The notes beneath the pieces are model-generated. The model saw nothing but the letters and a program-made list of their open reading frames with translations, ran no database searches and was not told the origin of the DNA. Below, in pieces: positions 21,788-33,925 of a stretch of DNA of 64,000 nt. The DNA comes from Methanohalophilus sp. RSK (GTDB taxonomy: Archaea > Halobacteriota > Methanosarcinia > Methanosarcinales > Methanosarcinaceae): assembly GCF_003722075.1 (NCBI RefSeq), contig NZ_RDSK01000013.1, positions 124,001 through 188,000 on the forward strand, written 5' to 3'. Every line of letters begins with the position of its first letter. Position 1 is the stretch's first letter. A program made the position numbers and the translations under genes.

Positions 21788-21969
21788 ACTAATCCCAGTT
21801 TATTTAACTATGTTCGACCAATGTGTGTAATCTAGAAATATTTTTGTATCGGTAATTAGTCTTTTATAAACAGAGCGTAAACCCCCCACGTCTTTAGCAT
21901 CGCATTAAATCGGAGATTTTATGGGAGTTTCATTTCTTTAAAATGAAACATAGGGGATGTAAGCGTCCA

Positions 21970-22061
21970 TTATCCCTGATTCCTTATGTATTCTAATGCC
22001 GCTTCCGTGCTAATATTTCCAATGGTACTACAAAAAGTATCCATCATTCTAGGGCACACCT
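21970..22061 (-). pseudogene. tnpA: tnpA (Y1 transposase) C-terminal remnant
   Basis: On the minus strand about 26 codons can be read ending in a TAA at 21970-21972: M-M-D-T-F-C-S-T-I-G-N-I-S-T-E-A-A-L-E-Y-I-R-N-Q-G. The pattern (W/R-x-x-x-F-V-x-T-x-G-N-V-S-x-E-x-x-x-x-Y-I-x-x-Q) is the usual C-terminal end of IS200/IS605 TnpA. The upstream part with the HUH motif and catalytic Tyr is gone; the tnpB promoter region follows at once. The element is therefore not able to move on its own. Confidence 0.6.
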
Positions 22062-22106
22062 CATTAACTTAAACTATAAATACAGTTAACTTTAATATAT
22101 ATTTGA

Positions 22107-23228
22107 ATGTTAAGTGCTTACAAATATAGAATGTATCCTACAAAAGAGCAGGAAGAGAAGTTCTTTCAACACTTCGGTGCATGTAGATTCATCTATAATT
22201 GGGCTTTAGAACAGAAAATCAAATCCTATGAACAGGATGGAAAATCAATCTCAAGGTTTGACCTGAACAAAGGGATTACAATATTAAAGAGAGACGGAGA
22301 GCACGAATGGCTCAAAGACGTTAATTCTCAGTCATTGCAGGGTGCTACTCTCAATCTCGATAATGCCTTTACACGATTTTTCAGAGAGAATAGGAGTTTT
22401 CCTAAGTTTAAATCAAAGAAAAACCCAGTACAGGCTTACAGTGTTCCTCAGAATTACAAGGTTGATTTTGAGAATAATAAGATATACATTCCGAAAATAG
22501 GTAGCGTCAAAACTATTTTGCACCGTCACTATGGAGATGGAGACCTGAAAACCGCTACAGTATCACGCACATCTACCGGAAAATACTACATTAGTATTCT
22601 TGTAGATGATAGTCGGAAAATCCCAGAAAAAGCGGAGATTTCTGAAAATAATACCGTAGGAGTAGATGTAGGCATTAAGGACTTTGCCATCACGTCAAAT
22701 GGTAACAAAATCGATAATCCAAGACACCTTAAAAACTCAATGAAGCGTCTTAAAGTTCTATCAAAACGCCTCTCTCGAAAACAGAAAGGATCAAAAAATA
22801 GAAAAAAAGCACGTCAAAAAATAGCCAAAATATACGAAAAAATAAGCAACCAAAGACACGATTTCCAGCATAAGGTTTCGACAAAGCTCATTAGTGAGAA
22901 CCAAGCAGTAGCATTAGAAACTCTTAATGTGTCCGGTATGCTCAAAAACCACAATCTTGCCCAACATATAGCCGATGCATCGTGGTCTTCCTTTGTAACA
23001 AAACTCGAATACAAAGCAGAATGGTACGGATAAACAATTCTCCGTATCGGACAGTTCGAGCCATCTACTAAAATATGCAATGTCTGTGGGTATCATAACA
23101 AAAACATTACACTTGCAGACCGTAAATGGCAATGTCCTTATTGTGGTGCATCCCATGACAGAGATGTCAATGCTGCAATCAACATTAAGAAGTTTGCCTT
23201 AAATAAACAGAATTTGATAGATATTTGA
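22107..23228 (+). pseudogene. tnpB: tnpB (RNA-guided nuclease, IS605 family) with in-frame stop
   Basis: TnpB is an RNA-guided DNA endonuclease, ancestor of Cas12. The frame from 22107 reads a typical TnpB start ([11 protein letters not shown]) with the RuvC-I Asp in [10 protein letters not shown] and RuvC-II Glu in V-A-L-E-T-L-N-V. At 23031-23033 a TAA interrupts W-Y-G. The same frame continues with the missing part: I-G-Q-F-E-P-S-T-K, C-N-V-C ... C-P-Y-C zinc ribbon and the RuvC-III motif D-R-D-V-N-A-A, ending at 23228. A single base change (AAA to TAA) explains this. The codon is TAA, so pyrrolysine read-through (TAG) does not apply. Confidence 0.88.
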
Positions 23229-23325
23229 AGCACCGTAGGGACTACGGGGAGAGCCTGTGGACTTGTGAACATAAGTTCAAAGAATGAAGCAGGAAGCACC
23301 TGAGTCTTTAGCTCAGGTGTAGTTC
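23229..23325 (+). ncRNA. Candidate TnpB-associated guide RNA scaffold (omega RNA / right end)
   Basis: Downstream of the tnpB frame, two stems can be drawn: CCGTAG / CTACGG (23233-23247, 3-nt loop) and CACCTGAG / CTCAGGTG (23297-23319, 7-nt loop). In IS605 elements the guide RNA overlaps the tnpB 3' end and right end, with the guide taken from the flanking DNA. Here the flank would be the 5' region of the photolyase gene. Expression is not shown. Confidence 0.5.
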
Positions 23326-23352
23326 ACGTGATAGGAGATAAAATTCCCTCTG

Positions 23353-25007: not shown

Positions 25008-26325
25008 TCAATTTTCGCAAAGCTGGAGATTTGTGGGTATTGTGAAAGTAAAGGTGCTGTCTTTATTAATTTCACTTTCAACCCATATATCGCCATTATG
25101 TGCTTCTATGAGGTTTTGGGCAATAGTGAGTCCAAGTCCCAAACCATCATATTTGCGAGTTGTTGAACCATCAAGTTGTACAAAGGGTAGAAACAGTCTG
25201 CTCTTATCTTCCTGGGATATGCCGATACCTGTATCCTTTATGCTAATCTCAATATAATCATTTATTTTTCTTGCTGTTAGCGAAACAGAACCATTTTGGG
25301 GTGTGAAAGTAATGGCGTTTTCAGTAAGATTATATAATGTTTGTTTCAGCTTTTCCCTATCTCCATTTATGATTTCTAAATCCGGATCTACATCAAATGC
25401 CAATTTAATTTTCTTTGAGTCAGCACGAGGCCTTAAGGCCTCTTCAATGTCTTTTATAGCTTCTAATATATTGAATGGTCGGGCATGAATCTCTGTTTTT
25501 CGCAGGTCAATGTCTGCGATACTTAGAATGTCATTAAAAACCTTTAATAAATGGTCACCACTTTTAAGTACTATTTTGAGATATTTCAATTGATTTTCAG
25601 TTAAAGGTTCAGAATCACGATTGTCAATCAGTATACGGGAAAAGCCTATGATTGAATTTAAAGGTGTTCTGAGTTCATGACTTGCATTTCTTAAAAACTC
25701 AGTCTTTGCTTTATTGGCGTTTTCTGCAGCAATTTTGCCGTCTATTATTGCATTTTCTGCCTCTTTGTATTTGGTGATGTCCATAGCAGATCCCATAATT
25801 CCAAGAGGTTTATCGTCCTTATCCAGTACTAAATTTGCTGACAGTAGTGAAGGGAATTCTGTCCCATCTTTTTTGACACATTTTACTTCTCCCTCCCACA
25901 TTCCTTCTGAAATCAAAGTTTGTACGATTTCTCTTGTCCTTTTTTCCCTCTTGAAAAAATCAAAAATAGTTTTTCCAGAGACATCCCTTTTATCATCGTA
26001 TCCCCATAAATTAAGAAAAGCGTTATTTACATCAATAAATTTACATTTCATATCTATAAAACCTATCGGATTGATTGATTGATTTTTCGACAGCGTTTTC
26101 TTTTATTAAAATGTCTTTTTCCATTTTGCTGGAATTGATCAGTACTTTGAATGCTAAAATTGTAAACACAAATAGGTAAATCAGGACAGATGTAATGGTA
26201 GCTATGAACTCGTACAGGGATAAGTTCACATTGTAATATAAGATTGAAAATATAATTATGATTAGTACGGTGAATATCCCATACGTGAGGAATACAATTG
26301 ATCTTAATATATTTTTATTGTACAC
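25008..26325 (-). pseudogene. PAS-domain membrane histidine kinase, split by a frame break at (AATC)4
   Basis: Two minus-strand frames make one kinase. The first (26325-26041) has two membrane helices and a linker and stops after Y-R-Y-E-M. The second (through 25008) has the end of a PAS domain (W-G-Y-D-D ... D-I-T-K), the phospho-acceptor box S-H-E-L-R-T-P-L and a HATPase_c domain (N-A-I-T-F-T, D-T-G-I-G-I, G-L-G-L-G-L). The frames differ by one base. The break is in four AATC units (26069-26084). With three units the frame reads S-I-N-P-I-G-F-I-D-M-K and joins both parts into about 438 residues. It could be a phase-variable gene in the off state, a true pseudogene or a sequencing error. No response regulator is adjacent. 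Confidence 0.85.
26069..26084. repeat. Tetranucleotide repeat (GATT)4
   Basis: Four perfect GATT units on the plus strand (AATC on the coding strand) at the point where the kinase reading frame is lost. Removal of one unit, or addition of two, restores the frame. Confidence 0.9.
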
Positions 26326-27123: not shown

Positions 27124-27210
27124 TTAGGCATTTATTTTTCATTTGATTCTTTATTAGTTTCCCATTTTGGAATATATATTAGATATTCGTCTCATATTTC
27201 TGCTCAATTT

Positions 27211-27402
27211 ATGTGCCCCAACTGCCAGGTGCAGTATGACCGTTATCAGCCCGTTATAGAAAAGGAGTTTGGCGAGAAGTATGATATGGTGCATATGAAC
27301 ATTGCCCAATTCACCGCTCTGGCACTGGGTGGCGATCCTCTCAAGGTTTGTGGCTTCCAGACCCATTCGGTTGACCTGACTGATTTCCTGGAGACTCTTT
27401 GA
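27211..27402 (+). pseudogene. HdrB-like C-terminal fragment (CCG domain)
   Basis: The 63 codons start M-C-P-N-C-Q-V-Q-Y-D-R-Y, the C-x2-C end of a second CCG (cysteine-rich) domain, and continue N-I-A-Q-F-T-A-L-A-L-G as in heterodisulfide reductase subunit B, where this domain helps bind the non-cubane iron-sulphur clusters. A full HdrB has about 290-300 residues; everything before this point is missing and no related sequence is seen upstream. It is most likely a gene relic. A TATA-like AATATATATTA at 27171-27181 would allow a leaderless transcript from the ATG, so a short expressed protein cannot be excluded. Confidence 0.65.
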
Positions 27403-32738: not shown

Positions 32739-33804
32739 TGTTTCATCCCCACATGTGTGGGGAACTCATCAAGCCCACCAGCAGAGTTCTCAAAGGTTTC
32801 GGTTCATCCCCACATGTGTGGGGAACTCATCAAGCGCTGCATTATATTCTTCCGCATCCGCGGTTCATCCCCACATGTGTGGGGAACTCTTGTTTTTTCG
32901 GATAATTCCACCATCTGTGTTCGGTTCATCCCCACATGTGTGGGGAACTCTATATTACAAGAAAAGTATAAAAAGTATCATACGGTTCATCCCCACATGT
33001 GTGGGGAACTCATATAGTATTCGATGTGGAAGATTTCGGAAAACGGTTCATCCCCACATGTGTGGGGAACTCTGCTCGCAACCTGAGGTTAATTTGCATG
33101 AAATCGGTTCATCCCCACATGTGTGGGGAACTCGCCGATTGGAACTGCATCAAATTGCTGGAGTGCGGTTCATCCCCACATGTGTGGGGAACTCTATTGT
33201 AGTATTTTCAATTCGAACAGTAGCCCCGGTTCATCCCCACATGTGTGGGGAACTCTTCGCCGAACAAACTCATAATGGTAAAGCATTCGGTTCATCCCCA
33301 CATGTGTGGGGAACTCATGTGAGAACTGTTGACGTTGACGGCAACACACGGTTCATCCCCACATGTGTGGGGAACTCCAATACAGAAATGGCACTTACGG
33401 AAACACCCTCGGTTCATCCCCACATGTGTGGGGAACTCATTTTTGCAGGTTTTCACGTACCATGTTAATGCGGTTCATCCCCACATGTGTGGGGAACTCC
33501 ACAATCGCTTTCTTCCTTCCTGTCTGGAACTCGGTTCATCCCCACATGTGTGGGGAACTCTGTCCCCATTTACCATATGAAGTATTTAAAAACGGTTCAT
33601 CCCCACATGTGTGGGGAACTCATCAAACCCAAAAACCAGAACGGTATTAAAATCGGTTCATCCCCACATGTGTGGGGAACTCATTCTGCAGCTGACTACC
33701 TCAACCAGATAGCCCGGTTCATCCCCACATGTGTGGGGAACTCTACGGTTACCTCTGTGTTTGATGTATAATCATCGGTTCATCCCCACATGTGTGGGGA
33801 ACTC
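32739..33804 (-). CRISPR. Type I-E CRISPR array, 18 repeats and 17 spacers
   Basis: 29-bp repeats with exactly 32-bp spacers, period 61, from 32739 to 33804. On the plus strand each repeat begins CGGTTCATCCCC and ends TGTGGGGAACTC; on the transcribed minus strand it begins GAGTTCCCCACAC and ends GGGATGAACCG, the classical type I-E layout with a CCCCACA/TGTGGGG hairpin and an ATGAACCG-type 5' handle. Only the left-most repeat is altered (bases 1 and 3 on the plus strand), marking that side as the old, trailer end. The leader is on the right next to cas2. All spacers differ, showing active past acquisition. Confidence 0.98.
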
Positions 33805-33925
33805 TGTTTCTTATTTATTTGGAAAGGCGGAAGTCAGATTCCTACAGTAGTAAGAATTCTGAAAATTCTTATCAATGTTCCTGATTGGATTTTCCTATAA
33901 GCCACATGTATCATCTCAATACAAG
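33805..33925 (-). promoter_or_regulatory. CRISPR leader
   Basis: 121-bp AT-rich stretch between the last (newest) repeat and the cas2 stop. It holds an inverted repeat AAGAATT-CTGAA-AATTCTT (33852-33870), centred about 57 bp from the array. Type I-E adaptation in Escherichia coli needs IHF bending of the leader; archaea lack IHF, so another factor must act here, and the palindrome is a candidate site. Confidence 0.7.

Follow-up and report, generated by a model that had tools for sequence, protein, structure and literature searches.

Methanohalophilus sp. RSK, whose source is the Kebrit Deep in the Red Sea and whose genome is a SPAdes assembly of Illumina MiSeq reads (PMC6491703), carries a gene for a membrane-PAS-histidine kinase that is split over two reading frames. 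We analyzed this gene in a stretch of 64,000 nucleotides of contig NZ_RDSK01000013.1, which we call the window. Coordinates refer to the window unless a genome handle is given, and the features are collected in Table 1.

Table 1. Features of the split kinase gene and its surroundings in the RSK window.
Feature	Position	Strand	Basis
Membrane-PAS-histidine-kinase gene, frame-split	25008-26325	-	Sequence and ORF list
Upstream fragment: 94 aa from a GTG start, with two hydrophobic (membrane) stretches and a linker	26041-26325	-	ORF list
Perfect (AATC)4 tract, one unit more than in the G005 orthologue; site of the frame break	26069-26084	-	Sequence, relatives
Downstream open frame: PAS (PF13426), HisKA (PF00512), HATPase_c (PF02518)	25008-26102	-	Pfam and ORF list
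Overlap (11 bases) of upstream stop (TAA 26043-26041) and downstream ATG (26051-26049)	26041-26051	-	Sequence, ORF list
IS605-type OrfB (TnpB-like) element	21868-23327
Site of the missing hdr-like stretch (~3.7 kb)	27194-27210
ORF of the HdrB-like C-terminal remnant	27211-27402	+
CRISPR-like array	32742-33809

The upstream fragment is collinear with the start of an intact frame of 438 codons in two sister species (96% identity to G005 and 87% to G002), runs out of frame past the AATC tract and terminates at the TAA listed in Table 1. The downstream frame lies one base out of phase with it and has its first ATG at 26051, from which a protein of 347 aa would be made; it shares 95% identity with G005 and 91% with G002. 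Its PAS_9, HisKA and HATPase_c domains all score above the Pfam cut-off, the motifs HELRTP, NLTENA, DTGIGI and GLGLGL are present, and all four of H, N, G1 and G2 are preserved. By its domains and motifs, the RSK gene is a PAS sensor histidine kinase of the HisKA/HATPase_c type. A single continuous frame that includes the membrane part is found in G005 and G002, whereas in RSK it is split at the tract; apart from this break, the whole gene contains no further stops or indels. ORF list, Pfam and motifs thus agree with the sequence-only reading, which had described a membrane part and a PAS-kinase part, both intact, in frames one base apart. Promoter and terminator scans around the kinase gene gave nothing above chance, with a sigma-70 model that is not applicable to archaea.

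The AATC tract and the ancestral frame

The frame break falls exactly on the perfect (AATC)4 tract, as had been noticed from the letters alone. An exact-pattern search of the genome (1,969,036 bases in 18 contigs) finds this tract as the sole copy. In the 207-kb contig that carries it, it is the one tetranucleotide run of at least four units, against none in 20 third-order Markov simulations (about 4.1 Mb). Since the simulations never gave a four-unit run, the tract exceeds what the base composition would give by chance. Tetranucleotide runs of at least three units are not enriched in the same contig (3 observed versus 3.65 expected under the third-order Markov model). The general repeat survey covers this contig, and the whole genome was covered by exact-pattern searches for the AATC and CTAA motifs only.

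The sister species G005 and G002 both encode an uninterrupted orthologue of 438 aa across the junction. At the site of the RSK break, G005 carries exactly (AATC)3, while G002 has a site of the same length as G005 with a T to G change in the first unit; the residues at the junction of these intact proteins read VEKSINPIGFI and VEKAINPIGFI, respectively. The expectation that three units would join the two frames is thereby borne out by a natural sequence. More distant orthologues (G003, genus g3) are likewise open across the junction, and a scan of the loci compared revealed no tetranucleotide run of at least four units in them. A scan of genome contigs for near relatives returned distant kinases only, from a collection that may omit near records. 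With G005 and G002 in frame and G005 at three units, the relatives show that the RSK lineage gained one AATC unit. The in-frame state is ancestral and the broken frame derived. Among the genomes compared, the unit gain is limited to RSK, and the counts by species (4 in RSK, 3 in G005, a degenerate site of the same length in G002) amount to one change between species.

Distribution of the kinase gene in the genus

The presence of the kinase gene in Methanohalophilus is patchy. The syntenic site of G004 has the flavodoxin and tRNA neighbors and no kinase; that of G006 has the tRNA neighbors and lacks both the kinase and the flavodoxin gene. A search with the N-terminal part found no orthologue in G001 and G007. 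A tree built from the flanking DNA together with an additional locus has the form (RSK,(G005,G006),(G002,G004)). Because G004 and G006 fall in different clades and the gene is present in RSK, G005 and G002, this topology suggests that the kinase was probably lost separately at least twice, in G006 and in G004; gain by transfer is the alternative account of the same patchy presence. On this distribution, the kinase is part of the accessory genome of Methanohalophilus.

Substitutions after the break

Substitutions in the RSK lineage were polarized with G002 as outgroup, which yields small counts in which a few codons carry more than one change. Upstream of the tract, RSK accumulated 0 nonsynonymous and 3 synonymous changes, and downstream of it 13 and 12, respectively. 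The nonsynonymous share after the break is higher than in the flanking genes of the same lineage (13:12 versus 68:163, Fisher p = 0.039). The comparison with the G005 branch over the same downstream part is not significant (13:12 versus 6:10, p = 0.52). At the same time, neutrality along the whole RSK branch is disfavored, as there are fewer nonsynonymous changes than the neutral expectation (P 0.004-0.03 for kappa 1-4), and an inactivation would thus have come late in its history.

Scored against a profile of homologues, the downstream part reaches 527 bits in RSK, 532 in G005 and 515 in G002, which rules out an advanced decay of the kinase domain. Only one derived change in RSK, from G to D within GKGSTF, affects a nearly invariant site, and a similar change is present in G002. 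The signs expected of a pseudogene are mixed: there is no extra stop or indel, and the 13:12 ratio lies over that of the neighbors and under neutrality. Since the motifs are intact and decay is not advanced, either the frame was broken recently or its downstream part keeps a role. The lack of clear decay downstream and the non-significant comparison with the sister branch would also suit a gene that is still switching on, or a split gene that remains functional.

Interpretation of the frameshift

We consider it likely that the RSK allele is an accessory sensor kinase whose frame was shifted recently by the slippage of one unit, and not a built-in on/off switch. The ancestor would have been a full-length PAS sensor histidine kinase with two transmembrane segments, as in G005 and G002, in which replication slippage presumably added one AATC unit (from three to four) at the junction of linker and PAS domain. 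From the sequenced allele, the full-length membrane kinase would not be produced, although internal initiation might still give some soluble PAS-kinase. The mutation was probably tolerated, given the place of the gene in the accessory genome, as a recent loss of function, with a low and unselected rate of reversion being possible. What had been proposed from the sequence alone stands in part: an intact kinase is broken by an extra AATC unit, for which slippage is the natural cause, but the contingency device does not follow from it. Ordinary strain-specific slippage pseudogenes share with RSK a short repeat that has grown by one unit, intact orthologues in sister lineages and a dispensable gene, and the sole observed distinction of RSK is that its tract is unusually regular for this genome.

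A first alternative is gene fission, in which translation of the four-unit allele would restart at ATG 26051 and yield a soluble PAS-histidine kinase that still functions, with a changed localization and without abolishing the kinase. The 11-base overlap of this ATG with the end of the upstream frame could in principle be the place of such re-initiation, and both the intact catalytic motifs and the departure of the RSK branch from neutrality after the break are in its favor. However, the PAS domain starts upstream of the ATG, so that the PAS_9 match begins at profile position 10 and not at 4, and no clear Shine-Dalgarno sequence was seen upstream of it. Nonsynonymous changes make up a larger share than in the neighboring genes, and a late frameshift predicts the identical substitution pattern. 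We regard a fission as improbable.

A second alternative, about as improbable, sees in the tract a contingency switch, with the kinase ON at three units and OFF at four through slipped-strand mispairing, in the manner of tetranucleotide tracts in Haemophilus. It accords with a perfect tract that lies in the coding region exactly on the frame break and is longer than chance would give, with the in-frame three-unit form in G005 and with the intact downstream domains. Against it, four units fall below the tetranucleotide cut-off of at least five used in a bacterial phasome survey in Neisseria (PMC5953494), which also cites De Bolle et al. (2000) for longer tracts switching more often. None of the orthologues carries an expanded tract, the 207-kb contig holds no more tetranucleotide runs of at least three units than expected, and G004 and G006 lack the gene at the syntenic position; the observations amount to a single unit gain in a single lineage. 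The claim that the tract is a contingency locus is thus unsupported, and we hold such a switch to be quite unlikely.

Comparison with established systems is instructive. The tetranucleotide contingency loci of Haemophilus influenzae resemble the RSK locus in having a tetranucleotide unit in a coding frame, where a change of one unit shifts the frame (PMC2651432). That survey applied a lower repeat threshold than the Neisseria survey and found 12-14 tetranucleotide tracts per genome, each of them within an ORF, with variation between strains, whereas the RSK contig holds a single four-unit tract and the relatives of RSK form no length series. In Bordetella pertussis, a two-component sensor gene is, as in RSK, inactivated by a frameshift in phase variation (Stibitz et al. 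1989, as cited in PMC11868660). In that account, switching was observed and the regulon is known, while RSK is an archaeon with a tetranucleotide unit in which a single OFF allele is seen. The Bordetella gene is reportedly bvgS, and the repeat is said to be a C tract. A limited keyword search of open papers turned up no methanogen with repeat-based phase variation and no archaeal regulator subject to it; homopolymer tracts in archaeal genes are covered by PMC2831843. If it were a true switch, the RSK tract would add methanogens to the organisms with repeat-based phase variation of regulators and be an unusual archaeal example. As it is, it marks a break specific to one lineage, in a single one of the many sensor kinases of Methanohalophilus, and cautions that a single short tract in a single genome is insufficient to call a contingency locus.

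A sequencing or assembly error, with three units and an intact kinase in the true RSK genome, would suit a draft assembly of 18 contigs and a frame otherwise free of stops and indels, but it looks unlikely, and indeed the least probable of these accounts, as the MiSeq reads assembled with SPAdes are long relative to the tract and whole-unit errors in a tract of 16 bases are untypical of Illumina MiSeq.

Other repeats and neighboring features

A long tetranucleotide tract within the genus, (CTAA)9, occurs in G002 (C1:1875733-1875768, L108). At the same site, RSK and G004 have CTAACTAA and G005 has CTAACTA, only about two units in each of the three. The tract starts at, and overlaps, the stop codon of a gene for a metallophosphoesterase-like protein, and a thioredoxin-like gene follows downstream (both named from their sequences). 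Due to this position, changes in unit number would alter spacing and not frame, and the tract could vary operon spacing in Methanohalophilus. The contrast between (AATC)4 and this nine-unit tract is useful for surveys of archaeal contingency loci.

Near the kinase gene, a stretch of about 3.7 kb that is present in G005, G002 and G004 is missing in RSK. In G005, it encodes HdrA-, HdrC- and HdrB-like proteins (named from sequence), and the RSK deletion leaves an HdrB-like C-terminal remnant. G006 has the same deletion junction as RSK, yet the flank tree places it with G005, which rules out G006 as the sister of RSK on account of the shared deletion. The flanks of the IS605-type element in RSK are adjacent to each other in G005, G002 and G004. 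The CRISPR-like array has repeats of about 29 bases with a period of 61 bases, and a lone repeat matching it is found in G006 (L063:8804-8836), where neighboring genes are missing.

Elsewhere, another PAS sensor kinase frame (G000:C15:68675-70396, L093) contains an in-frame TAG at 69518-69520 of that contig. A relative in G005 (C1:810527-811519) also has one TAG, and the codon in the L093 kinase could be read as pyrrolysine or be a shared nonsense codon.
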